Shown: positions 6,608 through 35,428 of the stretch, piece after piece
How positions within the stretch are numbered: the stretch's first letter is position 1
Layout of the letters: each line of letters starts with the position of its first letter
Assembly: GCA_023129535.1 (NCBI GenBank)
Contig: JAGMBW010000009.1
Location: 1 to 38,626, forward strand
Reading direction: 5' to 3'
Source: Desulfobacterales bacterium
GTDB taxonomy: Bacteria > Desulfobacterota > Desulfobacteria > Desulfobacterales > C00003060
Length of the DNA: 38,626 bases
Notes under the pieces: generated by a model
What the model saw: only the letters and a program-made list of their open reading frames with translations
Told to the model about the DNA's origin: nothing
Databases searched by the model: none
Position numbers and translations under genes: made by a program

Positions 6608-6615
6608 AAAATGTT

Positions 6616-6725: not shown

Positions 6726-6751
6726 GGTCTATCCAGGTTACGCGCTTTGGT

Positions 6752-9349: not shown

Positions 9350-10015
9350 TTATCTGGCAATCATGGCCCGCATGCGGTCCGAGGCGTTCTGCGCATGATC
9401 GGCAATCTCGCCCACATGCTCTACCAGCGTGACCAGGTGGAATACCACGAGCGCATCTTTGATGGTGTTGAAGATCTTGAATTTCAGCTCCCGCTCCAGA
9501 AGATCGGCCTCTCTTTCGTACTGGCGGATATCCCGCACAAGGCTCTTTATTTTGGTCCTTTGTGCCTCCGACCTGCTCCTGAAATATTGGGTGGCAAGGG
9601 CTACCAGGTCCGATAATTTTTCGATAGGCGGTATCACAGCTTTAACCAGGTGGCGGAAATCGGCGGCCACCTCGTCCGGGATGCCTGTGGGCCGGAACGA
9701 TAGCCAGAACAGGGCCTCTTCCACTTCGTCCAGAACCTTATCCTCCTCTCTGAGGTATTGAAGAAACTGGAATTTGTCGACCGGCATAAGGATTCCTCTG
9801 GGCAAATGGTTGCGAATGTCGCGCTTGATATCATCGGCCTCACTTTCTATCCGGGCCACCTGTTCGGTCAAAAGGTCAAACTCTTTGCAGTCCTCGCCGA
9901 TGTAGCAAACAGCAGCTTCTCCGAAAAGACGAGCACATTCTTTGGCCTTGTCGGCGTGCCTCTGCAGGTCTTTAAAAGGTGATTTGAAAAATAGCGAGCT
10001 AATTAATAGGCGCAT
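9350..10015 (-). CDS. DUF47 / PhoU-like phosphate transport regulator, copy 2
   Basis: A 221-aa PhoU-like protein, nearly identical to copy 1. Differences include Leu4 for Val, Glu for Gln in YIGEDCKEF, Thr for Ser in FRPTGIP and Lys for Arg in PIEKLSDL. The same AAAGGAGG ribosome binding site precedes ATG 10015. It is separated from pit copy 2 by 369 nt of repeats, against 144 nt in copy 1. The downstream flank (GTGCAGAATCGAACCGTC) is shared with the relic at 963-1096 but not with copy 1. Expected role is control of or coupling to the phosphate permease. Confidence 0.92.
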   Translation of the reverse strand: MRLLISSLFFKSPFKDLQRHADKAKECARLFGEAAVCYIGEDCKEFDLLTEQVARIESEADDIKRDIRNHLPRGILMPVDKFQFLQYLREEDKVLDEVEEALFWLSFRPTGIPDEVAADFRHLVKAVIPPIEKLSDLVALATQYFRSRSEAQRTKIKSLVRDIRQYEREADLLERELKFKIFNTIKDALVVFHLVTLVEHVGEIADHAQNASDRMRAMIAR

Positions 10016-10384
10016 AAAATGTTCCTCCTTTAAGTATTTGGAATTTAGGAATCCAGGGATTATTTTCCCTCAATTCCTAACCCGGATAAACCGGAACAAA
10101 AACTATCACGAAAACACGTACTGTTCTCAAGGCGCAAGCCGCAAAGTACGAAAACACGAAAGGCTGAATGTTTTTTTATTTCGTGCTTTCCCTGGCCCAG
10201 ACCTGGCTTACAGGCTTAGGAGACTGATTCGAGCACACAGCGCCAGGGCAGGCAATTTTTCGTGCTTTCGTGATTATCTTTTGAAATTTTCTGCCAGAAA
10301 AAACACGGATTTCAGAAGTAAGTGTCTAAATCCCTTAATCCCTCAATCCCTTAATTCCGGTCTATCCAGGTTACCCGCTTTGGT
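10016..10384. repeat. repeat-filled spacer between pit copy 2 and DUF47 copy 2
   Basis: Contains CCTAACCCGGATAAACCGG (also at about 31), an inverted pair ATCACGAAAACACG (about 10108) and CGTGCTTTCGTGAT (about 10261), a CCCTGGCCCAG block like that at 211, and an octamer array AATCCCTT/AATCCCTC/AATTCCGG at 10325-10360. I see no gene here. Relative to copy 1, this spacer has gained about 225 nt, which looks like an inserted hairpin element. Confidence 0.6.
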
Positions 10385-11641
10385 TCATAATAAAAACAGG
10401 GTCAGGACCTTGTACAAAACCATGGCCAGAACCATCGTGAATGGGAGGGTCACGATCCACGAAAGGCCGATATTCTTGAGAATACGCAGATCGAGCGTGC
10501 CCATGCCCCGCATGAGCCCTACTCCTACCACAGCCCCTACCAGGACGTGGGTGGTTGATACCGGCAGGCCGAGGCGGGAGCACATCAGGATAGTAGTGGC
10601 CGCTCCAAATTCTGCACAAAACCCCCGCAGCGGCGTAATCTCCGTAATGTTTTTTCCAATCGTCTCCATGACGCGCGTACCAAACACAAGAAGCCCTCCG
10701 CCCACGGCAATGCCACCCACAAAAAGCATCCAGAATGGGACCTCCACCTGCAAGACCACTGTCTTCGTTTTGACCACGGCAAAGATGGCTGCAAGCGGGC
10801 CAATGGCGTTGGCCACATCATTGGCCCCGTGGGCAAAGGCAACATAACAGGCCGTAAGGACCTGAAGCTGGGCAAAGAGACATTCCACGGGAGAGTATCC
10901 TCTGGAATCGGGTCGTAGTTCGCACTTAACATGCACCTGCCAGCGCACCCACTTGCGGCCAAACACTCCCGCCAGTGCAGCACATGGGGTTACCACCAGG
11001 AGAGTTTGCAAAAAGCCAATCTCGAGATGGAGGTTCTTGAGGCCCTTAAATATGACCGAGAGGATAAGGACCAGGGCAACAACAAAGATCATAGCAGGGG
11101 CGTAGTGAACTGCGGCAGCCTCAGGGTCCTTAGCGGACATGATCTTTTTCTCGGCGAAATAGAAAACCGCTCCTGCAATCATTGCCCCTGCAGCCGGTGA
11201 AATGACCCAACTCACGGCAATGGTGATGATCTTGCCCCAGCTTACAGCCCCTCCACCCACACTGATAATTCCAAAGCCAACCACTGCGCCAACAATGGCG
11301 TGCGTGGTAGATACAGGCAGACCAAAGTACGTTGCCAGATGCACCCAGAGGCTGGCGGAGACGAGGGCAGCAAACATCCCAAGCATCAGTTTGTTGGGCG
11401 TATCCGCGAGGAGGCCCGGGTCGATGATTCCCTTGCTGATCGTGCCGGTCACGTACCCGCCTGCAAGTCCGGCTCCAAGTATATTGGCAATGACCGACAC
11501 CACCACTGCTTGGTTTAGGGTCAACGCCCTGGACCCCACCGAGGTTCCCATGGCATTTGCTAGGTCATTGGCGCCAATATTGGCCGCCATGTACAGACCG
11601 AGCGCTGAGGCAATCGACAAGACAAAGATATCAATGTTCAT
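10385..11641 (-). CDS. PiT family inorganic phosphate permease, copy 2
   Basis: A 418-aa membrane permease with the same two PiT half-repeats as copy 1: GANDLANAMGTSVGSRALT with LPVSTTHAIVGAVVG, and HGANDVANAIGPLA with LPVSTTHVLVGAVVG. The two copies differ most in the loop after VFYFAEKKIMSAKDP and in the segment around residues 195-260, and not at all in the last 65 residues. Both are full length with no stop codons, so both may be active, perhaps with different affinities or regulation. The upstream region carries the MITE at 11706-11917, which may separate this copy from promoter elements kept by copy 1. Confidence 0.93.
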   Translation of the reverse strand: MNIDIFVLSIASALGLYMAANIGANDLANAMGTSVGSRALTLNQAVVVSVIANILGAGLAGGYVTGTISKGIIDPGLLADTPNKLMLGMFAALVSASLWVHLATYFGLPVSTTHAIVGAVVGFGIISVGGGAVSWGKIITIAVSWVISPAAGAMIAGAVFYFAEKKIMSAKDPEAAAVHYAPAMIFVVALVLILSVIFKGLKNLHLEIGFLQTLLVVTPCAALAGVFGRKWVRWQVHVKCELRPDSRGYSPVECLFAQLQVLTACYVAFAHGANDVANAIGPLAAIFAVVKTKTVVLQVEVPFWMLFVGGIAVGGGLLVFGTRVMETIGKNITEITPLRGFCAEFGAATTILMCSRLGLPVSTTHVLVGAVVGVGLMRGMGTLDLRILKNIGLSWIVTLPFTMVLAMVLYKVLTLFLL

Positions 11642-11705: not shown

Positions 11706-11917
11706 TAGTTTTTAAGATAAAGTTTTTCGGGTATGGCACCATCTTGCCTTTGCGTTTTTTGTTGCGATCAACCACGGGCGCAAGGCACAAGGCTCAGGGC
11801 ACAAGGTCTTCTCCTTAAGCCTTAAGCCTTGTGCCTTGCGCCTGATAGCTTAATGTGCCATGTTTGATTTCCTCTAGGCTGGTTTTCAACCCCAAAATGT
11901 TTTTCTTAAGCTGTATA
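11706..11917. mobile_element. MITE-like element, copy B, with empty site preserved at 8070
   Basis: Compared with the pit copy 1 upstream region, exactly this 212-nt segment is extra. Copy 1 reads TTATAGTATGCT. Copy 2 reads TTATA, then the element (TAGTTTTTAAG ... CTTAAGCTG), then TATAGTATGCT. TATA (or TA) is thus duplicated at the insertion. The terminal repeats are those of copy A at 5511-5714 in reverse. It has no coding capacity; TA-rich targets suggest mobilisation by an IS630/mariner-like transposase encoded elsewhere. Confidence 0.88.
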
Positions 11918-12172
11918 GTATGCTGTTTATAATCACCTTTAAAATAGCCCGTCAATCAATTTTTAATCCACAGATTTCGCAGATTACACGGATTACTCTA
12001 ATCACTTGAAGGGCGATGCGAAATCTGTAGGGTTTAATTCCCCGCAGCTTGCTGCGATAGAAAAGATAAAACACTTATTTTGATACCCCGCTGGTTGCGG
12101 CAGGGTAGTTTAACGGGCTCAACGGGCCAAACGGGCTCAACGGTGAGTCCCACCCTGAAAGAGGAGAGTCTT
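11918..12172. other. NUDIX upstream region
   Basis: The first about 45 nt continue the homology to the pit copy 1 upstream region. Then come a CAGATTTCGCAGATTACACGG block with a partly complementary GCGAAATCTG, two GC-rich short hairpins (CCCCGCAGCTTGCTGCG; CCCGCTGGTTGCGGCAGGG) and the GGCTCAACGGGCCAAACGGG block also seen at about 8124. No gene is visible; the promoter for the NUDIX gene must lie here or between the hairpins. Confidence 0.4.
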
Positions 12173-14963: not shown

Positions 14964-15485
14964 TTATAACCAGCCAGGGGCCTCACCTTTCAAAACCCTC
15001 TCAATGTCCTGTCCGATCTTGTCAAAGAGTTCATCAAGGGTCTTTGGGCCAAAGTCAAAGGGAAAGGGTTCTTTTCTTTCCTCTCTCCTTCTAAAACCCT
15101 TAATCATATTGTCTATTTTCACCAAAAGATTTCGGTGGTTGTGTCTTTCCCTTGAAATTTTGTGGATGAAATCCCAGTCCGGAAGCTTCTGGTCTTCTTT
15201 CCTTTCGGCGCATACCTCGATAATCAAACCATTGAGAGAGTGGATGTACGATTTGTGCCAAACAATCTTCGCCTGTTCGTCCTTTTCCCCCGCCATTCTA
15301 TAACAATCCCGACAGTACCACTCCTCCTCAAACCAGTAATCTCCGAAGTAGAATGGCTCTATGGTGTCACCCACGTAGTAAGTTTCCATCACACATTCTC
15401 CGCGCTTGGTCTGGATTTCTCTCTGCTTAGTCTGTTTGCAGTCAGGGCACTCAAGCTCCGCTACGATCGTATCAAACATTCCCAT
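14964..15485 (-). CDS. unknown protein with N-terminal zinc ribbon
   Basis: A 173-aa protein of no family I recognise. Residues 1-20 contain AELECPDCKQTKQREIQTK and residues about 57-62 contain YCRDCYRM, a four-cysteine pattern consistent with a zinc ribbon. The C-terminal third is charged and helical (HNHRNLLVKIDNMIKGFRRR, then DELFDKIGQDIERVL). The gene begins right after the 3' remnant of a nucleotidyltransferase gene (15498-15596), the same order as in the second copy at 17535-18724. A two-gene unit is therefore likely. AGGAGAAAGAA lies before the start codon. Confidence 0.7.
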   Translation of the reverse strand: MGMFDTIVAELECPDCKQTKQREIQTKRGECVMETYYVGDTIEPFYFGDYWFEEEWYCRDCYRMAGEKDEQAKIVWHKSYIHSLNGLIIEVCAERKEDQKLPDWDFIHKISRERHNHRNLLVKIDNMIKGFRRREERKEPFPFDFGPKTLDELFDKIGQDIERVLKGEAPGWL

Positions 15486-15497
15486 TTCTTTCTCCTT

Positions 15498-15596
15498 TTA
15501 GGGGTTACCTTCCTCGGATTTGGATGGTTTCTTTCCCGCCGCTTTAAGAATGTTATAGATTTTAAGGGGCCTTTCCATCTTCTCCTCACTTACGGA
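15498..15596 (-). pseudogene. 3' remnant of a nucleotidyltransferase gene
   Basis: On the minus strand it reads VSEEKMERPLKIYNILKAAG and on to KSEEGNP before a stop, almost identical to the last 32 residues of the nucleotidyltransferase at 17900-18724. Everything upstream is replaced by unrelated sequence that starts with CGGTTACCCCGTTTG. This is the broken half of the left copy of the duplicated gene pair. Confidence 0.85.
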
Positions 15597-15751
15597 ACAT
15601 TCGGTTACCCCGTTTGCCCGTCCGTCAAATCTCTGTCGACTCCACCTGCACTCCCAAACCAGTTCCAAAGACTCCCTTCAAGTTGATGCATCACAACTTC
15701 CGTGCTACGTTGTTCCTGTATCACATCCATATAATCCCAGAGGTGAACCAA

Positions 15752-17407: not shown

Positions 17408-17439
17408 GTTTCAATCCACGCCCCCGTGCGGGGGGCGAC
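17408..17439 (-). CRISPR. solitary type I-C-like CRISPR repeat
   Basis: A 32-nt unit starting GTTTCAATCCACGCCCCCG and ending GGGGGGCGAC on the plus strand. It belongs to the same repeat family as 19158-19188 and 19224-19255. The minus strand gives the standard crRNA orientation (ends GTGGATTGAAAC, strong GC hairpin). No second repeat follows within 100 nt on either side. Confidence 0.85.
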
Positions 17440-17477
17440 TTTATTGAGTTATTTAAAGACGTCCCCCTATGGCCCCT

Positions 17478-17515
17478 GGTTTTCAACCCCAAAATGTTTT
17501 TCTTAAGATGTATAG
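17478..17515. mobile_element. solo terminal repeat of the MITE-like element
   Basis: 38 nt identical, on the opposite strand, to the left end of copy A (5511-5548), including CCCCAAAATGTTTTTCTTAAG and the flanking TATA side. No partner end is found nearby; the duplicated gene relic begins 20 nt away. It may mark a recombination joint. Confidence 0.75.
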
Positions 17516-17534
17516 CTTGCCAGACAAAGGGATT

Positions 17535-17887
17535 TTATAACCAGCCAGGGGCCTCACCTTTCAAAACCCTCTCAATGTCCTGTCCGATCTTGTCAAAGAG
17601 TTCATCAAGGGTCTTTGGGCCAAAGTCAAAGGGAAAGGGTTCTTCTCTTTCCTCTCTCTTTCTAAAACCCTTAATCATATTGTCTATTTTCACCAAAAGA
17701 TTTCGGTGGTTCTGTCTTTCCACTCCTCGTCAAACCAGTAATCTCCGAAATAGAATGGCTCTATGGTGTCACCCACGTAATAAGTTTCCATCATACATTC
17801 TCCACGCTTGGTCTGGATTTCTCTCTCCTTAGTCTGTTTGCAGTCAGGGCACTCAAGCTCCGCTACGATCGTATCAAACATTCCCAT
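17535..17887 (-). pseudogene. truncated second copy of the zinc-ribbon gene
   Basis: The first 55 codons match the gene at 14964-15485 (MGMFDTIVAELECPDCKQTK onward). The segment encoding the second cysteine pair through about residue 110 is deleted with loss of frame, and the last 60 codons (NLLVKIDNMIKGFRKREERE to GEAPGWL) resume in another frame. It lies 12 nt downstream of the intact nucleotidyltransferase, as in the original gene order. Confidence 0.9.
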
Positions 17888-17899
17888 TTCTTTCTCCTT

Positions 17900-18724
17900 T
17901 TAGGGGTTACCTTCCTCGGATTTGGATGCTTTCTTTCCAGCCGCTTTAAGAATTTTATACATTTTAAGGGGCCTTTCCATCTCCTCCTCACTTACGCAAA
18001 GCTTTTGAATCAGTCTATCCTTGAGCCAGGTGGCTGTGTTCTTAACCTCCACGGCTTCATAGTAATCCATGACGATACCCTCATGACATATCCTGAGTGC
18101 CGTATTCAGGCCCTTGAAAATATTCTTCGGAACTATGTTCCGCATACCTTTTCTGATTTCGCCTTTTGATACCGGGACAACGCCCCGTGTCTCAAGATAA
18201 AGTATGCTAAAATTTACCGCCGCCCTGGCAAGGTAATCAGGCACAAAACACTCACATTTCTCTTTGCAGAATTTTTCGTGAAACTCCTTATCTGTTTCAA
18301 GGTCATGAAGACCCATAAAGTAAAACTCAAGCCAGTGGACAAACCAATCCTTTATCCACTTTTTCTTAGGGATGCCAAGAGGCATTTCAAGAAACGGTCT
18401 CAAAAAACTACTCTTTTCAAAGACAGGTATCCCTTTCTGAATCGAATGTGCCATCGTGCTAAAGTCTTCAAAGCGCTCTCTTAATTCTTCTTCTGAAAAG
18501 ACCACAAGTTGGGCCATTAGCGGAATGTCTTCCATCAAGCTCTGCCTCTGTTCAAGGTTCACCCTCAGGCCAGTGACACAAACCAGGTCAACATCAGAGT
18601 CCTTCATATGATCTCCCATTGCCACACTTCCAATAACAATTATGGCCTTTATATCCAGGTGGCTTGAGAGAAGCTTTTCAACCACTTCCTCTACGTCCTT
18701 TACAAACCTCCGAGGAATTCGCAT
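17900..18724 (-). CDS. nucleotidyltransferase (pol-beta fold) with C-terminal helical domain
   Basis: A 274-aa protein with the minimal nucleotidyltransferase signature at residues 31-50: IGSVAMGDHMKDSDVDLVCV, where Gly32-Ser33 and Asp44/Asp46 are the nucleotide- and metal-binding residues. The rest is helical and may be a HEPN-like partner domain fused in one chain, though no clear RxxxxxH motif is visible. Possible roles are a toxin-neutralising AMPylase (MntA-like) or an antibiotic-type nucleotidyltransferase. It forms a two-gene unit with the zinc-ribbon gene, which is truncated here but intact in the other copy. Confidence 0.75.
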   Translation of the reverse strand: MRIPRRFVKDVEEVVEKLLSSHLDIKAIIVIGSVAMGDHMKDSDVDLVCVTGLRVNLEQRQSLMEDIPLMAQLVVFSEEELRERFEDFSTMAHSIQKGIPVFEKSSFLRPFLEMPLGIPKKKWIKDWFVHWLEFYFMGLHDLETDKEFHEKFCKEKCECFVPDYLARAAVNFSILYLETRGVVPVSKGEIRKGMRNIVPKNIFKGLNTALRICHEGIVMDYYEAVEVKNTATWLKDRLIQKLCVSEEEMERPLKMYKILKAAGKKASKSEEGNP

Positions 18725-19157
18725 AAGATTATCATGACCTCTCAGAAGATAAAGGGTAATAGTTCACCGCCCGCTTCGCTCAAGGCGCAGAGAGCGCAGA
18801 GTTTATCTTTATTTTGCTTTGCGCCTGGCGGCTTGAGAACATTACCGCTGAGAGGGCGGAAAGCAAAAAGAATCAGCCCCTCCTGTGTATGTGAAGGCAA
18901 CTCGCAATGATAACACAATGAATAATAGTGTATTAAAGTTAGACTATTACGCAGCAAAGCTGCTGAGTAGTTTTCCTTTGCCGTCCTCTCAACGGCAAAG
19001 GAAAAAAACTATCTTACTTTGCGTTCTCTGCGTCTCTGCGGTAAGCCATGACGATTTTATCACATAGGGCTGAACTGTTACGGCGAAAGCTTCACAAGTA
19101 ACTAAGTTTTGATTTGTGATTTCATGCACTTTGCTAACGCAATACGAGCTTATTTCA
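18725..19157. repeat. intergenic hairpins and gene-tail relic left of the array
   Basis: Contains GGCGCAGAGAGCGCAGAG (about 18782) facing the near-complement GCGTTCTCTGCGTCTCTGCGG (about 19021), a local hairpin CCTTTGCCGTCC/ACGGCAAAGG at about 18975-19000, and at 19071-19107 a tail of the decayed module seen at 15752-16129. About 70 nt up to the first I-C repeat resemble 16103-16170. I see no gene. Confidence 0.5.
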
Positions 19158-19255
19158 GTTTCAATCCACGCCCCGTGCGGGGGGCGACACGTGCCCGATT
19201 ATCCTCATCGGCGAGGAAAGTCTGTTTCAATCCACGCCCTCGTGCGGGGGGCGAC
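19158..19255 (-). CRISPR. two type I-C-like repeats at the old end of the array
   Basis: Repeats at 19158-19188 (31 nt, one C lost) and 19224-19255 (32 nt, one C-to-T change) flank a 35-nt spacer. A second 33-nt spacer-like gap leads to the truncated repeat at 19289. Orientation matches the main array. No I-C cas genes (cas8c/Csd1, cas5d) are in the window. Confidence 0.88.
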
Positions 19256-19288
19256 AGCTGTCAACTGATTTACAAATGGACGTCCCGC

Positions 19289-19315
19289 GTTTCCTCCGTG
19301 GATGTCTTTCTCCAG
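19289..19315 (-). repeat. truncated repeat joining the I-C and I-B-like repeats
   Basis: The right 18 nt (GTGGATGTCTTTCTCCAG) are exactly those of the main array repeat. The left part is shortened to GTTTCCTCC, a net loss of 9 nt that removes TTGTTTTA. It is followed by a 36-nt gap and then the first intact repeat, so spacing is kept. It would be expected to process poorly or not at all. Confidence 0.8.
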
Positions 19316-19351
19316 GTTCTCTACGGCACCTACAGTTCGCCTCCGCCCGCG

Positions 19352-22074
19352 GTTTCAATCCTTGTTTTAGTGGATGTCTTTCTCCAGTCAGCACCATCCC
19401 CGCCACCGTTATCGTCATAATGTTTCAATCCTTGTTTTAGTGGATGTCTTTCTCCAGATTAAATGCTTGGACACCCTGTGGCTCATTGACAGTTTCAATC
19501 CTTGTTTTAGTGGATGTCTTTCTCCAGATTGAGTACGGCCAGATTGCATTGAGACAATTCCCGTTTCAATCCTTGTTTTAGTGGATGTCTTTCTCCAGAT
19601 CGATATAGGTATCCGCAGCCGTTGTAGCTCCTGCGTTTCAATCCTTGTTTTAGTGGATGTCTTTCTCCAGTGCCCTATACTATAGCACTATTTGTGCCAC
19701 TAACATAGTTTCAATCCTTGTTTTAGTGGATGTCTTTCTCCAGTAAATTGTTTATCTTTTAATCCACTATTTTCTTAATGTTTCAATCCTTGTTTTAGTG
19801 GATGTCTTTCTCCAGTGTGTATCTGAAATGGTACAAAGCTTGTGTATTCCAGTTTCAATCCTTGTTTTAGTGGATGTCTTTCTCCAGTCATAGAATGCGG
19901 CTATGGATTACATCTATCTGTATCTAGTTTCAATCCTTGTTTTAGTGGATGTCTTTCTCCAGTGATACAAGTGGCAGTATAAACAAAACAGCACTAGCTG
20001 TTTCAATCCTTGTTTTAGTGGATGTCTTTCTCCAGTCCACAAAATCCGCATCGCAAGATCCCCATACCGGTGTTTCAATCCTTGTTTTAGTGGATGTCTT
20101 TCTCCAGTACTTTGGCAGTGACCGGAACATGGGCCACTATGTGTTTCAATCCTTGTTTTAGTGGATGTCTTTCTCCAGTCTCCCGGTCTGGTATTGGTAG
20201 ACCTGTTAGGTCGTGTTTCAATCCTTGTTTTAGTGGATGTCTTTCTCCAGTAATAGCGGGGCTTCCCCCGAACACATGGCAATATTGTTTCAATCCTTGT
20301 TTTAGTGGATGTCTTTCTCCAGTTTTGAGGATGTCCCTGGCCTGCGGGATGGGGATTTAGTTTCAATCCTTGTTTTAGTGGATGTCTTTCTCCAGTTTTC
20401 AATGAAACATGGAAAGCGTTTATAGCAATCTAGTTTCAATCCTTGTTTTAGTGGATATCTTTCTCCAGTATAATAACAGAGCTGCACAGGGATGGATTAA
20501 TATAGTTTCAATCCTTGTTTTAGTGGATGTCTTTCTCCAGTAAAATCCCCATCCCGCAGGCCAAGGACATCCTCAAAGTTTCAATCCTTGTTTTAGTGGA
20601 TGTCTTTCTCCAGTGAAAGAATGATGGGGGAAAACAATCCTTTCTATAAGTTTCAATCCTTGTTTTAGTGGATGTCTTTCTCCAGTTTAAATATCGAGTT
20701 GGATAAATCGTTAAGCCAATTGTTTCAATCCTTGTTTTAGTGGATGTCTTTCTCCAGTCCGGCATCTCCTATCAGTACGCTAAAGAATTACATAGTTTCA
20801 ATCCTTGTTTTAGTGGATGTCTTTCTCCAGTTTTTTCTGTTGCGCTTGCAATATGGATAAAGAATTGAGTTTCAATCCTTGTTTTAGTGGATGTCTTTCT
20901 CCAGTTGGCATCCAAGCGCAAACGGGTGTGGCTGGAGAGTAGTTTCAATCCTTGTTTTAGTGGATGTCTTTCTCCAGTATGTATATTGCCATCATAGTCC
21001 ACACTCACGACCTGTTTCAATCCTTGTTTTAGTGGATGTCTTTCTCCAGTCTAGACGATACCTCTATGGCCACCGCTGCGTCATCATGTTTCAATCCTTG
21101 TTTTAGTGGATGTCTTTCTCCAGTTCGCCCTGCACCGAATATTCTTTAGATCGCCATAAGGTTTCAATCCTTGTTTTAGTGGATGTCTTTCTCCAGTGGA
21201 ATCGCACCATGACGGACGGCAGATTCTGGTCATGTTTCAATCCTTGTTTTAGTGGATGTCTTTCTCCAGTAATAGTAACACCAGTAAGCCTGAATTGCAC
21301 GTCTCCGTGTTTCAATCCTTGTTTTAGTGGATGTCTTTCTCCAGTATAATCTACGACCACGTTGACCTGGACGGGATCGTGTTTCAATCCTTGTTTTAGT
21401 GGATGTCTTTCTCCAGTCATTCTCAAACGGTACCTGTCCGGTGATCAGGTTAGGGTTTCAATCCTTGTTTTAGTGGATGTCTTTCTCCAGTGCCCCCGTA
21501 CATTTACGGGGCGAATTAATATCCTATGTTTCAATCCTTGTTTTAGTGGATGTCTTTCTCCAGTTCTCTGGAAGCAAGGATTAGTGCCATCTTTTAGTGA
21601 GTTTCAATCCTTGTTTTAGTGGATGTCTTTCTCCAGTCCATGAGCGTCTGCTGTACCATCTCCATCCGTATCCGGTTTCAATCCTTGTTTTAGTGGATGT
21701 CTTTCTCCAGTGTCTATACCCCATTCGCCGGGGAGAACGAGTCTTGTGTTTCAATCCTTGTTTTAGTGGATGTCTTTCTCCAGTCTTTATCCATGGTTTC
21801 AAAAGGTAATCCTTCCATGTGTTTCAATCCTTGTTTTAGTGGATGTCTTTCTCCAGTTTTTCACGGTGATATAGATGATGTAAGCGTAAAAGTTTCAATC
21901 CTTGTTTTAGTGGATGTCTTTCTCCAGTTATGGTGGAGGCACTCAATATATCATCACTCTAAGGGTTTCAATCCTTGTTTTAGTGGATGTCTTTCTCCAG
22001 TGCCAAAAAGCGATCCGGCTTACTCCCGTCCGCTCAAGTTTCAATCCTTGTTTTAGTGGATGTCTTTCTCCAGT
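19352..22074 (-). CRISPR. CRISPR array, 38 repeats and 37 spacers, type I-B-like
   Basis: The repeat is 36 nt, GTTTCAATCC at one end and GTGGATGTCTTTCTCCAG at the other on the plus strand, with a 37th base T after 35 of 38 copies and A after copies 2-4. The only internal variant is copy 16 at 20433 (GGATATC for GGATGTC). Spacers are 34-39 nt with a 36-nt repeat. The minus strand is the likely crRNA sense: it ends ...GGATTGAAAC, giving the 8-nt handle ATTGAAAC typical of Cas6 processing, and places decayed repeats at the old end (left) and cas4 at the leader end (right). The spacers at 20323-20359 and 20541-20577 are near-exact reverse complements. Confidence 0.98.
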
Positions 22075-22227
22075 CCTAATTTCTCAAAATAGCACGAAAA
22101 AATAAGGAGTTACGATTTTTTTCGAGCCCTCCTATTCTGCCGGAAAGCTGGTTCAACAGCCCTGAAGTGGCCAGTTTTAGGTCTACCAGAGTCACGTTAA
22201 CGTCCTTTCATCCTTGCACTTTTTCTC
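22075..22227 (-). promoter_or_regulatory. CRISPR leader
   Basis: 153 nt between the cas4 stop and the first repeat, containing AT-rich stretches (AAAATAGCACGAAAAAATAA, CGATTTTTTTCG). By position and orientation it should contain the pre-crRNA promoter and integration signals read on the minus strand. No open frame is present. Confidence 0.7.
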
Positions 22228-22869
22228 TTAAATCACCTTTTCGCAAATATTTCTATAGCAGCAATCGCCACATCTGGCTCTGTATTTCGTTGGCTTCGGA
22301 TACACTCCTTTTTGTACGACATCCAAGAAATCTTTGATTATGCTGTCCAATTCGGAATACATTTGTTCGGTGATAGGGACTTCGATTAGTTTGTTCTGGC
22401 TTCTGGTGTAAACTATGAACCCGCGATTAACAGGTACTTGAAAGTTCTCCTTGATCAACTGACCATAAAATGCCAACTGATATTTGTGATTCTTGAAAAT
22501 TCGTTCTTTGTACTCCGCATATTTGTAATCAAGAGGCGCAGCAGTGCCATCATCCAGGAAAAGGATTTCGTCAACGATACCCCTTAGCCCCCGTTTACAG
22601 GAAAGATACACCGATTTCTTTCGCTCAACACATCCGAGTTTCTTTCTCAAATATTCCGGGTTAACCCGAATTTTGTCTTCATGTATCGTGCGCCCCTTTT
22701 GAACCTTAAAGCGCTTTTCCTGATGTTCCGAAATTTTCAAATACAGTTCAAAATAAGTGAACCGCGGGCAAAAAAGATGCTCAAGGATATCTGAGGCTGT
22801 GATGGAAAATCCAACTTCACCATCATTGATATCAGCAAACTCGGCATTTTCACTCAAAGCATGGGCCAT
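22228..22869 (-). CDS. cas4: Cas4 RecB-like nuclease
   Basis: A 213-aa adaptation nuclease that trims prespacers and selects their PAM end with Cas1-Cas2. Iron-sulfur cluster cysteines are Cys34 (HLFCPRFTYFEL) and Cys200, Cys203, Cys209 (CGDCCYRNIC). The nuclease core has His63 (GRTIHE), Asp100 (GIVDEI), Asp114-Tyr-Lys116 (PLDYKY) and QLAFYGQLI. Here the usual Glu of the EYK motif is Asp. It lies 27 nt after the AbiEii-like gene and directly before the leader, about 11 kb from cas1 and cas2, an unusual separation. Another group of genes may therefore control its expression. Confidence 0.93.
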   Translation of the reverse strand: MAHALSENAEFADINDGEVGFSITASDILEHLFCPRFTYFELYLKISEHQEKRFKVQKGRTIHEDKIRVNPEYLRKKLGCVERKKSVYLSCKRGLRGIVDEILFLDDGTAAPLDYKYAEYKERIFKNHKYQLAFYGQLIKENFQVPVNRGFIVYTRSQNKLIEVPITEQMYSELDSIIKDFLDVVQKGVYPKPTKYRARCGDCCYRNICEKVI

Positions 22870-22896: not shown

Positions 22897-23523
22897 CTAG
22901 AGCCCCAACTCATGCTCAAACAGGTTGATGTTATCAATAAAAAAAGACTTGATGTTGTCCCACTTCCAATCTTCTCCGCGTAACAGAATAGATGGAAGGG
23001 GCTCTTGCTCGGCATCTTCGAAGAAAGTCAGACTCTTCAATACATGGTAAAAGTTAATATCAGAGCCCTTGAAGCGCTTTTTGAAAAGGTCACATACCTC
23101 TCGCACAGAATACCTCATCTTCAAGACGGCATAGAGATCAATGAAATCTTTCTTTGAACCTCGTTGTGAAATGGCTTTGATCTTTTCCGCCACAATATCT
23201 TTGCTGTGAGCTACCGTGATCCCATGCCAGGACAGGGTGGGATGCATCAAGGGAACTTCATAATAGAGAAAGGAAACTCGAATACCCTTTATATCACAGT
23301 GTATAGTCCCGAGAGCGGTAAAAAACACCTTATCAGTAGAAATCAAAGAAAGAATGGCGTCTGTGTTGAACAGCCTGTCGGAGAAAAAGTCCAAATCATC
23401 GGATCTCCTGTGTCCCAATTGCAAGCCAAGTCCCGTCCCTCCTGCCAGATAAAACGCTCCCACGTGGGGTGACAAAGATTCGACTACTTCTATAGCTTCC
23501 TGGGATAGTATTTGCTCAAACAT
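22897..23523 (-). CDS. AbiEii/AbiGii-type nucleotidyltransferase toxin
   Basis: A 208-aa protein of the nucleotidyltransferase AbiEii family, whose members act as toxins in type IV toxin-antitoxin or abortive-infection systems. The motif FYLAGGTGLGLQLGHRRSDD followed by LDFFS at residues 24-48 supplies GGT plus Asp43/Asp45. Later it has IVAEKIKAISQRGSKKDFID, the second conserved block with Lys and Asp. It overlaps the upstream DUF6922 gene by 34 nt and precedes cas4 by 27 nt, so it is likely co-transcribed with cas4. Confidence 0.88.
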   Translation of the reverse strand: MFEQILSQEAIEVVESLSPHVGAFYLAGGTGLGLQLGHRRSDDLDFFSDRLFNTDAILSLISTDKVFFTALGTIHCDIKGIRVSFLYYEVPLMHPTLSWHGITVAHSKDIVAEKIKAISQRGSKKDFIDLYAVLKMRYSVREVCDLFKKRFKGSDINFYHVLKSLTFFEDAEQEPLPSILLRGEDWKWDNIKSFFIDNINLFEHELGL

Positions 23524-23789
23524 GGTACCTCTGTGAAAGGAATATTGAACTTGACTGCCCAGTATTTTCCGGTTTGTGGGAACAAGCCTCTCCTTGTTCG
23601 AATTACCTCCACGATCTTTTCGTCAGGATATATATCCCTGAGCACCCGCACATCCTCGATGTCACCATAGTCCAGAATTCTGGCTATGACGTAAGCAGCG
23701 TGCTGCACCGCATCAATATCATCCGCATCCCAGAAAATAGAGGGGCGAAACATCGATTTAATGTTCAATCTTTGCATATAATGAAGCAT
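23490..23789 (-). CDS. DUF6922-like partner of the AbiEii toxin
   Basis: A 99-aa protein (MFRPSIFWDADDIDAVQHAA, VIARILDYGDIEDVRVLRD, IRTRRGLFPQTGKYWAVKFN). Small proteins of this kind are commonly encoded just upstream of AbiEii-type nucleotidyltransferases and are taken to be antitoxins. There is no clear helix-turn-helix. The overlap with the toxin gene implies coupled translation. The first methionines (codons 1, 4, 13) are alternatives; none has a strong ribosome binding site. Confidence 0.75.
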   Translation of the reverse strand: MLHYMQRLNIKSMFRPSIFWDADDIDAVQHAAYVIARILDYGDIEDVRVLRDIYPDEKIVEVIRTRRGLFPQTGKYWAVKFNIPFTEVPCLSKYYPRKL

Positions 23790-23883
23790 CTCCTACGGTA
23801 TCAAGGGCTTATCTCTTTTCTTGCAACCCTTCTTATCGTTTTCACAATCCCTAAATCCCTGAATTCCATAATCCCTCAATTCC

Positions 23884-23973
23884 TCAATTCCTAACCACCG
23901 TCCCAAACCCCCGCGACACAGGCTTGCCGATCCCGCAGTAATCAGCGATTTCAAAATTGACGGAAAAGGTGCC
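23884..23973 (-). pseudogene. cas6 3'-end relic 1
   Basis: The minus strand reads GTFSVNFEIADYCGIGKPVS then RGFGTVVRN and a stop. The genuine cas6 end is GTFSVNFEIPDYWGIGKSVS, RGFGTVVRD. The matching octamer array (AATCCCTG, AATTCCAT...) lies beside each. The copy is only about 30 codons and lies just downstream of the MNT gene, about 0.9 kb from cas6. Confidence 0.92.
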
Positions 23974-23979
23974 GAAATG

Positions 23980-24303
23980 TCAGATTATCCTCTCGCCAGA
24001 CTCTATTATTTCCTTGATATACGGGTTGGTTTCGTCGAAATCTGATTTTCCAAAAGAATGCGGCTCTATTCGTAAATCCACCTTCCTGGTGAGCTTCATC
24101 AAAAGCACATCCTCGTCAAAACCATCTATCTCATCCTTGTTCCAAAAAACGGCCAAATCAATATCGCTATATTTATGATAGGTGCCTTTGGCATAAGACC
24201 CATATAAATATAAACGCCAGACGGGTATGTTATGGTCTTTCATTACATTTACATACTTTTTTATGAGCAGATAAATTAACTCTTTATCTTTTCTATGAGC
24301 CAT
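23980..24303 (-). CDS. MNT-type minimal nucleotidyltransferase (antitoxin of HEPN pair)
   Basis: A 107-aa protein with the MNT signature YLYGSYAKGTYHKYSDIDLA at residues 32-51 (Gly35-Ser36, Asp47, Asp49), plus the third acidic residue in KVDLRIEP. In characterised HEPN-MNT pairs the MNT protein AMPylates the HEPN RNase and silences it. It overlaps the HEPN gene by 28 nt and follows it. The pair is inserted between cas6 and a cas6 relic, inside the CRISPR locus. Confidence 0.88.
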   Translation of the reverse strand: MAHRKDKELIYLLIKKYVNVMKDHNIPVWRLYLYGSYAKGTYHKYSDIDLAVFWNKDEIDGFDEDVLLMKLTRKVDLRIEPHSFGKSDFDETNPYIKEIIESGERII

Positions 24304-24668
24304 TGCCGTAATTCCTTGATCGCGGTTATATGCTGCCCGGTGAACCCTTTTGTGGCCTTCTTGTGGAACTTGAATTTATAGTCAGGATACCGCGTTCTAA
24401 TATTGAACGCTGTAACCTCAAGCAAATAGTTCTTCTGCTCTTCTGAAAGATCAATGTCTGCTTGCTCAGCCAGTCTCAGCAGATGGTGAATCAGCGGCGG
24501 ATTGTTATCAATATTCCTGACGTAATGAGCTTTTAGAAGTTTTTCAATAACAAGGTGAGCAACAAACAAGGCCCAAACATAGTGGCCTTTATCGTAAAGG
24601 CTCTCCATAGCCTGAAAATCCACTTCTGATGAATCGATCCAATATTTTACAATTTCTTCCTTTGTCAT
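24276..24668 (-). CDS. HEPN-domain protein (putative RNase toxin)
   Basis: A 130-aa all-helical HEPN protein of the COG2250 type: YVWALFVAHLVIEKLLKAHY, then PPLIHHLLRLAEQA and NIRTRYPDYKFKFHKK. The Arg51 to His61/62 spacing is longer than the RX4-6H of active HepT toxins, so catalytic activity is uncertain. It is transcribed with the MNT gene. ATG 24668 is used; the preceding 20 nt contain the end of a cas6 relic. Confidence 0.82.
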   Translation of the reverse strand: MTKEEIVKYWIDSSEVDFQAMESLYDKGHYVWALFVAHLVIEKLLKAHYVRNIDNNPPLIHHLLRLAEQADIDLSEEQKNYLLEVTAFNIRTRYPDYKFKFHKKATKGFTGQHITAIKELRQWLIEKIKS

Positions 24669-24809: not shown

Positions 24810-25508
24810 TCAATCCCTGACCACCGTCCCAAACCCCCGCGACACAGATTTGCCAATGCCCCAGTAATCAGGGATCTCAAAATTGACGGAAAAGGTCCCC
24901 AGGAAGCCGAGCATGGGGGTGCCTTTAAGCTCTGCGTGGATCTCTCCGAGATGACGGATATCAGCCATAATTCTGCCTGGAACCGTGTATCCCAGGCCTT
25001 TACTCATAGAAATGATATTGCCCACTAGAATTCTTTCCAACATTTCTTTCCTGCTGACTTGAGCCCCCAGTCTCTGATACTTTTCATAGTTCTTTTCGTT
25101 AAGGCCAAGCCATGGGGTCAAAAACTTATATTCTCGTCTCCTATCAAGGAAACCAATACTCGGCGCCCAAAAGGACATCTCTTGCTGTTCAACGATGTAT
25201 TCCTCGTTCCCAAGACTCAGCCGCTTTTTTAAGACAAGTGCGTTTACGACATCTACCGCTCCTTTCCAAAGACCGACAATAAATCCGTTGCCTTTGATGA
25301 TTTTGTACTGGATCAGCGGATAGTTATAGATCAGAGTCCCATCATTTGCATGTTGGTGGAAAAGGACATTATCTTTTTTCAGATTGGCCATCGCTCCGCG
25401 TAAGTCTTTCGGCTTGACCAACAGGCTGAGTGGCCGGTCAAAGATGAGTTTTATAATACATTGGTTTATCGTTACACTGTCTTGAGTCATGACGGTAGCG
25501 TCTTTCAA
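24810..25508 (-). CDS. cas6: Cas6-family crRNA endoribonuclease
   Basis: A 232-aa RAMP protein that should cleave pre-crRNA inside the repeat and leave the ATTGAAAC handle. The strongest sign is the C-terminal glycine-rich loop GIGKSVSRGFGTV. Other parts have low conservation, as usual for Cas6: SLLVKPKDLRGAMANLKKDN near the start and PGRIMADIRHLGEIHAELKG later. It overlaps cas3 by 4 nt (ATGA) and is the last gene of the cas8-cas7-cas5-cas3-cas6 operon. Two further cas6 tails lie downstream as relics. Confidence 0.85.
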   Translation of the reverse strand: MKDATVMTQDSVTINQCIIKLIFDRPLSLLVKPKDLRGAMANLKKDNVLFHQHANDGTLIYNYPLIQYKIIKGNGFIVGLWKGAVDVVNALVLKKRLSLGNEEYIVEQQEMSFWAPSIGFLDRRREYKFLTPWLGLNEKNYEKYQRLGAQVSRKEMLERILVGNIISMSKGLGYTVPGRIMADIRHLGEIHAELKGTPMLGFLGTFSVNFEIPDYWGIGKSVSRGFGTVVRD

Positions 25509-27859
25509 AATACCAGAGTATCCCCATCCGAATCCCAGAATTTGTTTTCCAGCATAATGCCCCGTTCCAAATCATAATAGCCCTCGCGTAAAACCCAGTG
25601 CCCCAAAAACTCTGTTGCAATTTCCTGGGGAGAAAATCCACGTCGAGCAAAGAGATTAACAGAAATCTCCGCAATCCTTCCTGCGAGTTTACGCCAGGCT
25701 TCCCGACGTTTCCAACGGTCATCAATACGATTGGCATCAGCCATCGCTTCCTTAAGGGAAGGGTCCTGTTCTATAACCAAAAAGGTGTGTTGCTCTCGCT
25801 CCTTACCCCTTAGTAATTCTTTGACAGATACGTCTTCTTGCCACCGAACGAATTTATTGAGGTGTTCTTTGCCCGTATCTTTTAGCTTGTCAAGTTCTTC
25901 AAAATAACGATCTGAAATAGGCAATACGTCTTCTTCTTTGATAACAGGAAAAGATTCGATGAGCCTCCTGGTCTCCTGCAAAGAAACCTCATCATAGATC
26001 ATCTCTGAATATCGCCGCCCCTTTTCATTTACCAGGTCTACAATTTCAACTGGAAGCCACTTTCCGCCTCTCCCTTCCCGGTTACACCGGCCGGCGATTT
26101 GCACGATACTATCCCACGGTGCAAAATCTCGGATAACCAGCCCCATATCAATGTCCACCCCAGCTTCGATGCACTGAGTGGATACCACAATACATGGTTG
26201 ACCATGTTTAATAAGGTCTATTTTTCGTAGTCGATCTTTTGGAGTCACGTCGGCACTCAAGAAGAACATCGGTATATCTTTGTATTCCTCCGGCCAGTTG
26301 TGCTTCAGGTGATCATATACTGTACGAGCGCTTTTTCGAGTGTTCAAGGTGACCAGTACTCTTTCTTTCTTGTTAAGCCAATCATTCAATCGTGTCGCAA
26401 GATCTTCACAGAAATCCTGAATATGGGTCTTTTCACTTATGTGCAAGTGCAACTCGTAGCGTGAAAAAGCTTTGAAATACTCTTTATAGTTCTCCAACAA
26501 GGGGATTGTTTCTGAAACAAACGGAGGCAGGGTTGCCGACATCAAAAGTATCTGACTGTTCCCCATTCCGGCTAAACTATGAAGAACAGCGTTTAACAAC
26601 TGCCACAGTTTGCATGGCAAGGACTGAACTTCATCCATGATAATCAAGGCATCACACAAATTGTGAAAACGCATTTGATATCTTGCCCTGGGTTCTATCA
26701 AACTCAATAAGAATTGGTCATAGGTTGTAATAACCAATTCAGTTCGCCATGTATCAATAAAAAAATGTTCTGCGCTTTCTTCCATCCAGGGAGCATATTT
26801 ACGGTCAGAGAGTGAATGACTGGTCAGGAACCAGGATCCATCAACTTCTTGGCCGCTTATTTCAAGAAGAGACCTGTATTCTTTGGCTGTTTGATCGATA
26901 ATGGAAAGGTAGGGCAGTACCACGATTATCTTGGGAGGAATAACAGAGTTTCTTTCAATACTTTCCCGCTTTCTAAGTGCCCACGTAGCAGCCAGCAGCG
27001 TTTTTCCAATGCCCGTGGGAGCGGTCATGTAGTAAATGCCGCCTTGTCGTTTGTCCATTGTATTTTTTATTACTTCGGTTCTAGCTTTTTTTCTCAAAAA
27101 ATTTACGGGGTTCTCTTCACATTTCCCTATCTTTTGATCTACCCAAGCAGCCTGCCAATGTCGAGGGTTCCGCTCGAGGTGAGCTTTTGGATCAGGCACG
27201 GCCAAAAACGCCTTGTCAGCTTCCAATAGAAAAGAAAAAATCAGTTGAGCCTTGAGCCTGAAATCAACACCCTTCTCAAGAGTCAGCGCATGAAATTCGG
27301 GCATGATTTTTTCTTGCAAGAACCTGTCTGCTTCCCGAAGGCTTTTATTTGATAAGCAGAATCGTTTGAGATTGATTCCGGTTTCCTCTTCCAGACACAA
27401 CAGATCCAAAGTGGGCAGTTGTTTTTTTAAGGCCCTGGCGATATGGCCGCCTGTGAAGTCGTCTAAGGTTCGACATGAACTGCCGTTTTCACTGAATTTT
27501 CTACTGGGCAGGTTCGGCAAACCACCATGATGTCCATATGCGGAAGCTGCCAGGATGAGAGTGTCCAGGGATGTCCACCCTTCTTCTTTGGACAACAATA
27601 AAGTGAGGAGGAGTGATAAAGGAGCATGAGCCTTTTCTATCGGATCTCCTTGGAAGGAAGCGGGGTCCTCGATGAATTCCTGGAAAGCATCCGACCCCTT
27701 TCCCAAATCATGAAGCCGGGCGAGTTTTCTGGACAACCATTTCACTTTTTCAGAGACTAATTTTTCCGAGTGCCATTGCCAGATTCCGTCCATAGCAAGC
27801 TGAACCTGAGCAATGTGTTCTCGCAGGAACAGATCCGGATGAGACTTCAAATTTTTCAC
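25505..27859 (-). CDS. cas3: Cas3 HD nuclease-helicase
   Basis: A 784-aa effector that unwinds and degrades target DNA after Cascade binding. The HD nuclease at the N-terminus has His15, His50-Asp51 (RLHDLGKGS) and His110-His111 (GHHGGLP). The SF2 helicase has Walker A Gly285-Lys-Thr (TAPTGIGKT), DEVQ at 409-412, SAT at 441-443, and motif VI QIAGRCNREGRGG near residue 600. All metal- and ATP-binding residues are present, so it looks active. It overlaps cas5 by 4 nt at the start and cas6 by 4 nt at the end. Confidence 0.97.
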   Translation of the reverse strand: MKNLKSHPDLFLREHIAQVQLAMDGIWQWHSEKLVSEKVKWLSRKLARLHDLGKGSDAFQEFIEDPASFQGDPIEKAHAPLSLLLTLLLSKEEGWTSLDTLILAASAYGHHGGLPNLPSRKFSENGSSCRTLDDFTGGHIARALKKQLPTLDLLCLEEETGINLKRFCLSNKSLREADRFLQEKIMPEFHALTLEKGVDFRLKAQLIFSFLLEADKAFLAVPDPKAHLERNPRHWQAAWVDQKIGKCEENPVNFLRKKARTEVIKNTMDKRQGGIYYMTAPTGIGKTLLAATWALRKRESIERNSVIPPKIIVVLPYLSIIDQTAKEYRSLLEISGQEVDGSWFLTSHSLSDRKYAPWMEESAEHFFIDTWRTELVITTYDQFLLSLIEPRARYQMRFHNLCDALIIMDEVQSLPCKLWQLLNAVLHSLAGMGNSQILLMSATLPPFVSETIPLLENYKEYFKAFSRYELHLHISEKTHIQDFCEDLATRLNDWLNKKERVLVTLNTRKSARTVYDHLKHNWPEEYKDIPMFFLSADVTPKDRLRKIDLIKHGQPCIVVSTQCIEAGVDIDMGLVIRDFAPWDSIVQIAGRCNREGRGGKWLPVEIVDLVNEKGRRYSEMIYDEVSLQETRRLIESFPVIKEEDVLPISDRYFEELDKLKDTGKEHLNKFVRWQEDVSVKELLRGKEREQHTFLVIEQDPSLKEAMADANRIDDRWKRREAWRKLAGRIAEISVNLFARRGFSPQEIATEFLGHWVLREGYYDLERGIMLENKFWDSDGDTLVF

Positions 27860-28581
27860 AGAAACATCAATACTTCGCTATGGGTTTGAAACGCCTGATC
27901 TGTCTCCACAGGTACAGGACGTGCATCTCGTTCCATAAAGTAATTTTCGTGGGAGAAAACTCTGTCTGGAGTCACCGTCCGTGGCATCCGCAAAAAGTGG
28001 ATTACCAATTCATCCTCAAAGATCTTGTCGGTATCCAGTCTGCCGTTTTTCTGTGGGAAGATGGAATTCACATGGTAAGAACCCTCAGACAAAGACGAAG
28101 CCTCCCCCGATTTCAGATAGGTCAATTCAGCCATCATCTCCGATAACCCCAGACTTGGTTGAAAATGCCATCTCCTTTTCATCAACCTTTCTTCTAGTTC
28201 GCCGAAATAAGGTTCCGGCACAGAAACCCATACAGTGTAAACCGGGTTTAAAAGCCATTCCTGCCCAATCAATGTTGCTTTCTCAGGCTTTGTTGTTCTA
28301 GGGCTTCTGTGGCTTTTTTTTACAGTTCTTGGCAGGGCCGCGGGAGGGTCTTTTCTCAATTTGGCCTTATGCCAGTGTGTTTGCGGAAGCTTGCCACTGA
28401 GGGCGATACAAGCCGGTTGAAGAAGGGACTGTGGTTGGTCTTTTTCCAATCCAAGAACTGCACCTATTATTCCCAGGATGACAGTTCTTGGCGGAACAGG
28501 ATAAGTCGGTGCACTGGCTCCGCCTTCAGCCCGCAGAAAGTGGCCGTATCGTCCGCTTAATCGAAACGATATTAATCTCAT
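27856..28581 (-). CDS. cas5: Cas5 (type I-B-like) Cascade subunit
   Basis: A 241-aa RAMP protein that caps the 5' handle of crRNA in Cascade. The N-terminal MRLISFRLSGRYGHFLRAEG followed by YPVPPRTVILGIIGAVLG is the Cas5 signature (first beta strand, glycine loop, and PPRTxxxGxxGAxLG helix). The C-terminus contains HSEVLMFL. It starts 12 nt after cas7 and overlaps cas3 by 4 nt. Confidence 0.93.
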   Translation of the reverse strand: MRLISFRLSGRYGHFLRAEGGASAPTYPVPPRTVILGIIGAVLGLEKDQPQSLLQPACIALSGKLPQTHWHKAKLRKDPPAALPRTVKKSHRSPRTTKPEKATLIGQEWLLNPVYTVWVSVPEPYFGELEERLMKRRWHFQPSLGLSEMMAELTYLKSGEASSLSEGSYHVNSIFPQKNGRLDTDKIFEDELVIHFLRMPRTVTPDRVFSHENYFMERDARPVPVETDQAFQTHSEVLMFL

Positions 28582-28593
28582 GGTCAGGTCCCA

Positions 28594-29580
28594 TCACTTA
28601 GGGTTTTCGGTTTTGAGATTTTCCACATCAAGGCAAACCCAATTAGCCGGCACATCTTGGATAAACTGTATGTCTGATGATTTGTCGTACCTTATTTTTT
28701 CTATCCGACCTTTTTGGCCATTGAGTCGCTCTATCAATGTACTCAGATCCACTTTGTAGTCTCCCGGTGAAGCCCATACCTTTTCCGGTTTCTCATTAAC
28801 GGCTTGAAGTTTTGTATAGTCATGGAGCCGTCCAAACTGGAATTCCTCACCCTTTTTGTATTCAATACTGATAAGAAAATGGGGAATCTGCCCGACCTTG
28901 GTTCTGGTATTTCCCGCCGATCTTACACCATGCCACATTGCCTTTAGAAATAGGTCGTAATCATCATCTGAAAGCAAGGAAATTTTGGCCGAGTGTTCGT
29001 TAGCAACACCAGAAAAGCCAATCAACGCATACCGGAGTCCAAAATAGGTAGTAAACGTTCCCTGGGTTTTTTCTGCACCACTGGCAAAGATGGATGTCCC
29101 ATGAATATCCACTTCCTCGGCCTGATGAAGCACTTCTCCCATGTTGAGTTGAACAGCACCCGTCATTGTCTTTGGGATTGGTTCCCATTTTGCTTTTCTA
29201 CTACTTTCTCCCTTTACTTCTTCAGCCTTAAATGCAAAGGAACTACCAAATAGCCTTGCATCAATAAAGGCATTCAGAAGTATCCTGACTAAATCCTCGG
29301 CATTTGCCTCTTTTTGGTTATGTTTTTGCAAATAATCCACAACCCTGCCGGTCAAATTAGTCGTGCGACCCTCAATATTGTCAACAAGGATATCCTGCCC
29401 TCGGTTCTTCAGAAAATCCCGTATAAAACGTTTAAGCCGGACATCGGTTACGTAGTGGGTTCCATCCGGCAAAACCCTCGGTCGGTTTTCATCAGGGTCA
29501 CCGTTAGGGTTACCCATTTTAATGTCATACAAAAAAAGAAATTCACGTCTTCCGGAAAGGATATTTGCATCTTCTTTCAT
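28594..29580 (-). CDS. cas7: Cas7 (Csh2/Csd2 type) Cascade backbone
   Basis: A 328-aa RAMP protein that polymerises along the crRNA. It has the family motif MGNPNGDPDENRPRVLPDG at about 22-40, TDVRLKRFIRDFLKNRG after it, GAVQLNMGEVLHQAEEVDIH, and GLRYALIGFSGVANEHSAKI in the middle. Length is typical of I-B Csh2. It begins 12 nt after cas8 and has a 12-nt gap to cas5. Confidence 0.95.
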   Translation of the reverse strand: MKEDANILSGRREFLFLYDIKMGNPNGDPDENRPRVLPDGTHYVTDVRLKRFIRDFLKNRGQDILVDNIEGRTTNLTGRVVDYLQKHNQKEANAEDLVRILLNAFIDARLFGSSFAFKAEEVKGESSRKAKWEPIPKTMTGAVQLNMGEVLHQAEEVDIHGTSIFASGAEKTQGTFTTYFGLRYALIGFSGVANEHSAKISLLSDDDYDLFLKAMWHGVRSAGNTRTKVGQIPHFLISIEYKKGEEFQFGRLHDYTKLQAVNEKPEKVWASPGDYKVDLSTLIERLNGQKGRIEKIRYDKSSDIQFIQDVPANWVCLDVENLKTENPK

Positions 29581-32112: not shown

Positions 32113-32170
32113 TAAAAGAACTGCTCAAGCATTTCATCGTTTACCAGCTCTTTGTCAAACTTTTGCCCCG
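32113..32170 (-). pseudogene. cas2 3'-end relic
   Basis: In the frame one base off the overlapping gene the minus strand reads GQKFDKELVNDEMLEQFF and then TAG. The real Cas2 ends GQGFDKKLVNDEILQQFF. About 19 codons survive. The relic joins the 3' end of the 294-aa gene directly and supplies, out of frame, its last codons (SLTKSW, stop). Confidence 0.93.
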
Positions 32171-35309: not shown

Positions 35310-35428
35310 AATCACCACCTACCATCGAAAATGCAAACCCCTTTTTCGTTCTCAATCTGCCGGATATGCAACGTACGCCTTTCAACATACCTTTCCGTCG
35401 TAGCTGAGCAAGACATAAGGGTCGGGGT

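Follow-up and report, generated by a model that had tools for sequence, protein, structure and literature searches.

A type I-B CRISPR array that continues at its old end into type I-C repeats in a Desulfobacterales genome

CRISPR arrays in which different repeats are mixed have been described before: Ou and McInerney 2022 (bioRxiv 10.1101/2022.05.19.492656) is cited in PMC12282179 for 'mixed repeats between arrays', which are attributed to recombination. CRISPR systems can also share adaptation machinery and arrays, and two genomes with mutually compatible type I-B and type I-C spacers have been reported (PMC8482600). A search of the full-text literature, to which the Ou and McInerney preprint is external, returned no description of an array in which I-B and I-C repeats are stacked. 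The array presented here, from a member of the Desulfobacterales, has this architecture.

The analysed window is one entire contig of 38,626 bases and belongs to a 2.9-Mb genome of 230 contigs, which was assessed as 98.45% complete. The cas gene set, which is of type I-B and lies on the leader side of the array, is encoded on the minus strand in the order cas1, cas2, an ORF without assigned family, cas8b, cas7, cas5, cas3, cas6b, a few small genes and cas4. Cas8b, Cas7b/Csh2, Cas5b, Cas3 and Cas6b all score above curated cut-offs: Cas8b of the TM1802 family (29593-31581) matches Pfam PF09484 with 116 bits (cut-off 25.1), while it stays below the cut-offs of the NCBIfam Csh1 and TM1802 models; Cas7b/Csh2 (28594-29580) matches TIGR02590 with 192 bits (cut-off 171.55), Cas5b (27856-28581) matches TIGR02592, Cas3 with its HD and helicase parts (25505-27859) TIGR01587 and TIGR01596, and Cas6b (24810-25508) the Pfam families Cas6b_N and Cas6b_C. 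The adaptation set is formed by Cas4 (22228-22869; TIGR00372, 137 bits, cut-off 65), Cas2 (33335-33631; TIGR01573) and Cas1 (34296-35318; TIGR00287, 274 bits). This Cas1 is the sole Cas1 match in the genome. The I-C Cas1 model gives it 160.9 bits, more than the 137.2 bits of the I-B Cas1 model, and both values are under the respective cut-offs. Close relatives of it (loci L064-L068, L072 and L078) occur intact in three congeners, at 81-88% identity, and as fragments in G008, G017 and G015, a pattern which suggests that an older adaptation module is in decay in some members of the genus.

The uncharacterised ORF between cas2 and cas8b (32141-33025, 294 amino acids) has no family match; DNA resembling it follows cas1-cas2 in the congeners G006 and G020 as well, and its 3' end resembles the stretches 36842-36972 and 38439-38560. 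The interval between cas6b and cas4 (22897-24668) contains an AbiEii-type nucleotidyltransferase ORF, assigned by Pfam, with a small neighbour, and two small ORFs which by inspection look like an MNT/HEPN-type pair. Outside the cas region, a unit of two genes (ORFs of 221 and 418 amino acids) appears to be tandemly duplicated (5942-8008 and 9350-11641); by inspection, its products resemble a PhoU-like protein and a phosphate permease.

The I-B array (19352-22073, minus strand) is composed of 38 repeats (CTGGAGAAAGACATCCACTAAAACAAGGATTGAAAC) and 37 spacers of 34 to 39 nt, or of 33 to 38 nt if the near-constant T after the repeat is taken as its 37th base. The repeats had been described in the first-pass annotation as uniform and of one orientation, and so they are: all have the full length of 36 nt, 37 of the 38 are identical and the remaining one (20433-20468) differs by a single substitution. 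The 18-nt half-repeat is found 39 times in the window, where no occurrence is expected by chance. The stretch between the array and cas4 (22074-22227, minus strand) is the presumed leader, as judged by position and orientation. Since leader and cas4 lie at high coordinates and the array is on the minus strand, the old end of the array is at low coordinates, and the repeat at 19352-19387 is the oldest complete I-B repeat. The uniform array adjoins the cas genes, as in type I-B, array and genes look intact, and the I-B section is probably a normal working array. Among 21 congeners, the I-B repeat is absent at up to three mismatches.

Some peculiarities of the I-B spacers were also noted. The first five at the old end (19352-19670) are shorter than the rest (mean of 35.0 versus 36.8 nt), with a permutation p of 0.0006 for a comparison that was chosen post hoc, and the base after the repeat is A for repeats 2 to 4 and T for the other 35. 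The spacers 20323-20359 and 20541-20577 are, apart from one internal mismatch, reverse complements of each other, as though both strands of one protospacer, or two variants of it, had been sampled; an exact search of IMG/VR with the cores of this pair returned no target. A search of phages and plasmids with the whole array gave no convincing protospacer, and most of the plasmid matches concern the I-C segment and are themselves I-C arrays.

Beyond the old end of the I-B section, repeats of another kind follow on the same strand. Two I-C repeats at normal spacing had been annotated: one of 31 nt, short by one base (19158-19188; hairpin of -12.1 kcal/mol), and one of 32 nt, in which a substitution weakens the hairpin (19224-19255; -8.3 kcal/mol), separated by a 35-nt spacer (19189-19223). 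Both are confirmed, and a third copy had been missed, which lies isolated at 17408-17439 (minus strand; GTCGCCCCCCGCACGGGGGCGTGGATTGAAAC on the crRNA strand), 1,718 bases beyond the others; it matches the pattern with 0 mismatches and, with a fold of -15.1 kcal/mol, is the best preserved and best-folding of the three. The I-C core GTTTCAATCCACGCC is thus seen three times at up to two mismatches, where 0.13 occurrences per window are expected by chance, and there are no further matches to the I-C repeat pattern elsewhere in the assembly. The assignment to type I-C is based on a 32-nt, GC-rich hairpin repeat ending in ATTGAAAC, present in three copies, and on the similarity of the segment to arrays on plasmids, among them those of Nitratidesulfovibrio vulgaris, which carry the prototype I-C system. 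The three repeats differ among themselves, and this divergence, like the unequal folding energies, would be as expected of relics that are not under selection.

Between the isolated I-C repeat and the other two lie 1.7 kb of DNA that was inserted or rearranged (17440-19157), as seen by self-BLAST; this stretch, which splits the I-C remnant, contains a nucleotidyltransferase ORF on the minus strand (17900-18724; Pfam Polbeta/NTP_transf_2). The stretch 14964-15597, with a 173-amino-acid ORF of no assigned function, is duplicated at 17535-17999 (98% and 96% identity); this second copy lacks 167 bases and sits within the split remnant. The isolated repeat is followed after 36 nt by a 40-base element (17476-17515), of which two more copies are found in the window (5511-5550 and 11879-11918) and at least eight on other contigs.

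The two parts of the array meet in a short stretch. Read on the crRNA (minus) strand, the I-B repeats give way first to a damaged repeat of 27 nt and then, after 33 nt of spacer, to two I-C repeats, and the orientation is the same throughout. The junction repeat (19289-19315, minus strand), which had already been recognized as truncated, is separated by a 36-nt spacer (19316-19351) from the oldest full I-B repeat and by the junction spacer of I-C-like length (19256-19288, minus strand) from the I-C part. Its leader-side 18 bases are those of the I-B repeat and its trailer-side half is damaged, reading GGAGGAAAC where I-B repeats have TAAAACAAGGATTGAAAC. Both repeat types end in ten shared bases, GGATTGAAAC, which correspond to GTTTCAATCC on the plus strand and had been proposed as the site of a crossover. 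They would be a reasonable site, and a homology of ten bases implies illegitimate rather than RecA-type recombination. At this very place, however, the sequence of the junction repeat is GTTTCCTCC, which would agree about as well with a crossover that lay deeper in the repeat. The ten bases are therefore one candidate for the crossover; since the repeat is damaged just there, the exact site cannot be read. Scored as a decayed I-B repeat, it reaches 20.3, and the best I-B/I-C hybrid, picked from the many crossovers scanned, reaches 22.5, a gap which, given the number of hybrids tried, does not discriminate between the two.

Misassembly at 19256-19351, which had been named as a possible cause of the mixed appearance, is unlikely: no k-mer of 19 or more bases that starts in 19224-19349 recurs in the contig, so that there was little repeated sequence at which an assembler could have gone wrong. 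The identical I-B repeats could have been misjoined to one another, which would leave the neighbourhood of I-C and I-B repeats as it is. Exact searches of IMG/VR with the cores of the junction spacer and of the I-C spacer returned nothing, and no mixed array in either order was found in IMG/VR.

No I-C effector genes had been noticed in the window, and profile searches extend this to the assembly. With the I-C Cas7 (Csd2) model, the sole match in the whole genome is the I-B Cas7 (about 70.8-70.9 bits, cut-off 182.25), and the I-C Cas1 model finds the Cas1 of the window locus and no second Cas1; neither the rest of the contig nor the remainder of the assembly thus contains a detectable I-C cas locus that might use the array. 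With I-C Cas7 lacking and Cas1 found once only, Cas8c and Cas5c are unlikely to be encoded in the genome. Cas5c, which is part of the I-C set, is the usual processing enzyme of I-C repeats. The I-C repeats retain ATTGAAAC, and in the junction repeat this handle is replaced by GAGGAAAC, so that the junction spacer would be unlikely to give a normal guide. Based on the lost junction handle and on the missing gene set of the processing enzyme, the I-C tail can be regarded with high confidence as a fossil. Its spacers are probably transcribed by read-through, without maturation into usable guides.

A possible source of the I-C part can be found within the genus. The congener G013 encodes an I-C Cas7 above cut-off, G005 and G019 have weaker, split I-C Cas7 matches which lie above the cut-off when combined, and I-C-type repeats are found in G010, G011 and G013; an I-C donor or ancestor is therefore plausible. 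A comparison with relatives had been suggested as a way to find a full I-C array at the site. No intact ancestral I-C array at this site was found genus-wide, and the left-flank matches, which were considered as candidates, were rejected, as they are dispersed repeats, partial gene copies or I-C repeats located elsewhere.

Joins of the same kind recur in other genomes. When 84,980 species genomes were scanned for the end of a non-I-C repeat followed, after a spacer-sized gap, by a complete I-C repeat, four loci were obtained. A clear parallel is L057 (JAFGQG010000156.1, from the metagenome-assembled genome 'bacterium isolate Zod_Metabat.733'), in which at least 25 I-B-like repeats, starting from the contig edge, are followed by two intact I-C repeats and by a third that fades into the flank at its decayed 3' end; here, the junction repeat is intact. 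The I-B set of this genome is distantly related to that of the window, with 38% identity for Cas6b and 24% over 206 residues for Cas8b. Because the I-B repeats of both loci agree only in the 3' 22 bases and the I-C repeats differ in the stem, we read the join in L057 as an independent event. L054 is a relic of one I-B-like and one I-C repeat. In L055:1-4160, a long clostridial-type I-B array is followed by a partial I-B-like repeat of the GGATTGAAAC type and then by one I-C repeat; three systems may be stacked on this one array, the middle piece being short. L056, which consists of I-C repeats with degenerate copies, was set aside. Within the class (389 genomes), the strict I-B-to-I-C pattern gave no hit, and the same genomes were searched for the reverse order, with I-C younger than I-B. 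A mirror image of the window was found in G209, a genome of the same order (L062:45-6726), where the stretch read has 101 I-C repeats and where the last element on the old side, beyond a damaged I-C repeat and 37 nt of spacer, is one lone repeat of I-B/III-like type (GTTGAAGATAGGAATCCATTAAAACAAGGATTGAAAC). Either repeat type can thus be the younger layer.

The lengths of the junction spacers can also be compared. The junction spacer of L057, at 34 nt, lies outside the range of the I-B spacers (35-41 nt, n=24) and within that of the I-C spacers (34 and 36 nt); that of G209, at 37 nt, exceeds the 32-36 nt of 100 I-C spacers; and in the window, 33 nt compare with 34-39 nt (or 33-38 nt) for I-B and with 35 nt for the one intact I-C spacer. 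The length would therefore be consistent with the older system, clearly in L057 and G209 and marginally in the window, for a rule that was noticed post hoc on three junctions and with scan patterns that themselves required spacer-sized gaps. A junction spacer of the older system is predicted by a join inside a repeat and not by chance adjacency.

The most likely explanation for this anatomy, and the one we hold with rather better than even confidence, is in essence the takeover offered in the first-pass annotation, in which an I-B locus would have occupied the leader end of an I-C array that was already in place. Recombination inside the leader-proximal remaining repeat would have fused an I-B leader and its first repeat to the I-C array, so that the adjoining spacer of the older array (19256-19288) and the I-C repeats remained linked to the newcomer, with register and orientation kept. 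Later, I-B spacers would have been added on the leader side by the I-B adaptation proteins, and the I-C cas genes would have been lost, leaving the I-C tail to decay unselected, with diverged repeats, a weakened hairpin and the 1.7-kb split. This reading is supported by the common strand, the spacer-like spacing and the position of the I-B cas set and leader on the young side, by the absence of I-C Cas7 and of an I-C Cas1 from a nearly complete genome, and by the stacking seen in other genomes. An unlikely competitor is the insertion of a complete I-B locus, with a decayed terminal repeat, side by side with an I-C relic, in which case the 33-nt gap would be coincidental. Terminal repeats in ordinary arrays decay on the trailer side too, so that the damage to the junction repeat needs, by itself, no recombination event, and the region is rich in rearrangements and dispersed repeats. 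However, spacer-sized gaps and a common orientation are found again in L057 and G209, albeit with scan patterns that asked for such gaps, the junction repeat of L057 is undamaged, and a random insertion would usually be expected to leave behind a piece of leader or trailer of no particular length.

The same end product would arise if the I-C leader had given way to an I-B leader and repeat, either through gene conversion or because Cas1-Cas2 integrated aberrantly where the I-C leader meets the repeat; this would account for the survival of the older array's spacer and would suit the preference of the sole Cas1 for the I-C model, yet Cas1-Cas2 copies the repeat already in place and is not known to import a foreign one, and such an event has left no direct trace, which makes it improbable. 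Slightly less probable still is a continued use of the I-C tail, either by loading of crRNAs with the shared 8-nt handle onto the I-B effector or by an I-C effector encoded in the missing part of the genome. The GGATTGAAAC end common to both repeat types and the compatible spacers of the two genomes in PMC8482600 speak for it; against it stand the lack of an I-C Cas7 in the assembly, the non-uniform I-C repeats with one weak hairpin, the destroyed handle of the junction repeat and the split of the tail. The least credible account is that assembly or binning fused two arrays: CRISPR arrays are hard to assemble and this is a draft, but the k-mers across the junction occur nowhere else in the contig and the same kind of join occurs in other genomes.

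Takeover of a leader end might be part of a wider pattern. It is a speculative and rather unlikely idea that subtypes repeatedly succeed one another on one array via leader-end capture at the shared repeat tail, with the newcomer inheriting the oldest memory, and that some inherited guides may serve the new effector through the common ATTGAAAC handle. If leader-end takeover were routine, old array ends would be a stratigraphic record of the earlier systems of a lineage, the order of replacement could be read from sequence alone, and the question would arise whether a new effector uses the spacers of its predecessor. There is also a warning for repeat-typing tools: those that allow a single subtype for each array can mislabel such a locus or break it up.

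Compared with known systems, the locus resembles type I-B with Cas8b/TM1802, Csh2, Cas5b and Cas6b in its gene set, in its 36-nt repeat ending in GGATTGAAAC and in the position of the array beside the cas genes; unlike in the usual type I-B, the array does not stop at its terminal repeat but goes on with repeats of a second subtype. With the plasmid-type I-C arrays of Nitratidesulfovibrio vulgaris, the older part has in common the 32-nt, GC-rich hairpin repeat and spacers of 33-35 nt; it differs from them in consisting of three non-uniform, split repeats without an I-C Cas7 or Cas1 in the assembly. The genomes with compatible I-B and I-C spacers have separate repeats and adaptation genes for each system (PMC8482600), whereas in the window both repeat types are located on one array, with no I-C effector found. 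The mixed-repeat arrays of Ou and McInerney 2022, compared here through the citing paper (PMC12282179), are alike in mixing repeats; in the window, two subtypes are stacked from old to young and the junction spacer is retained. Mixed-repeat arrays were thus already known, and we rate the stacking of I-B on I-C as a new form of such mixing.
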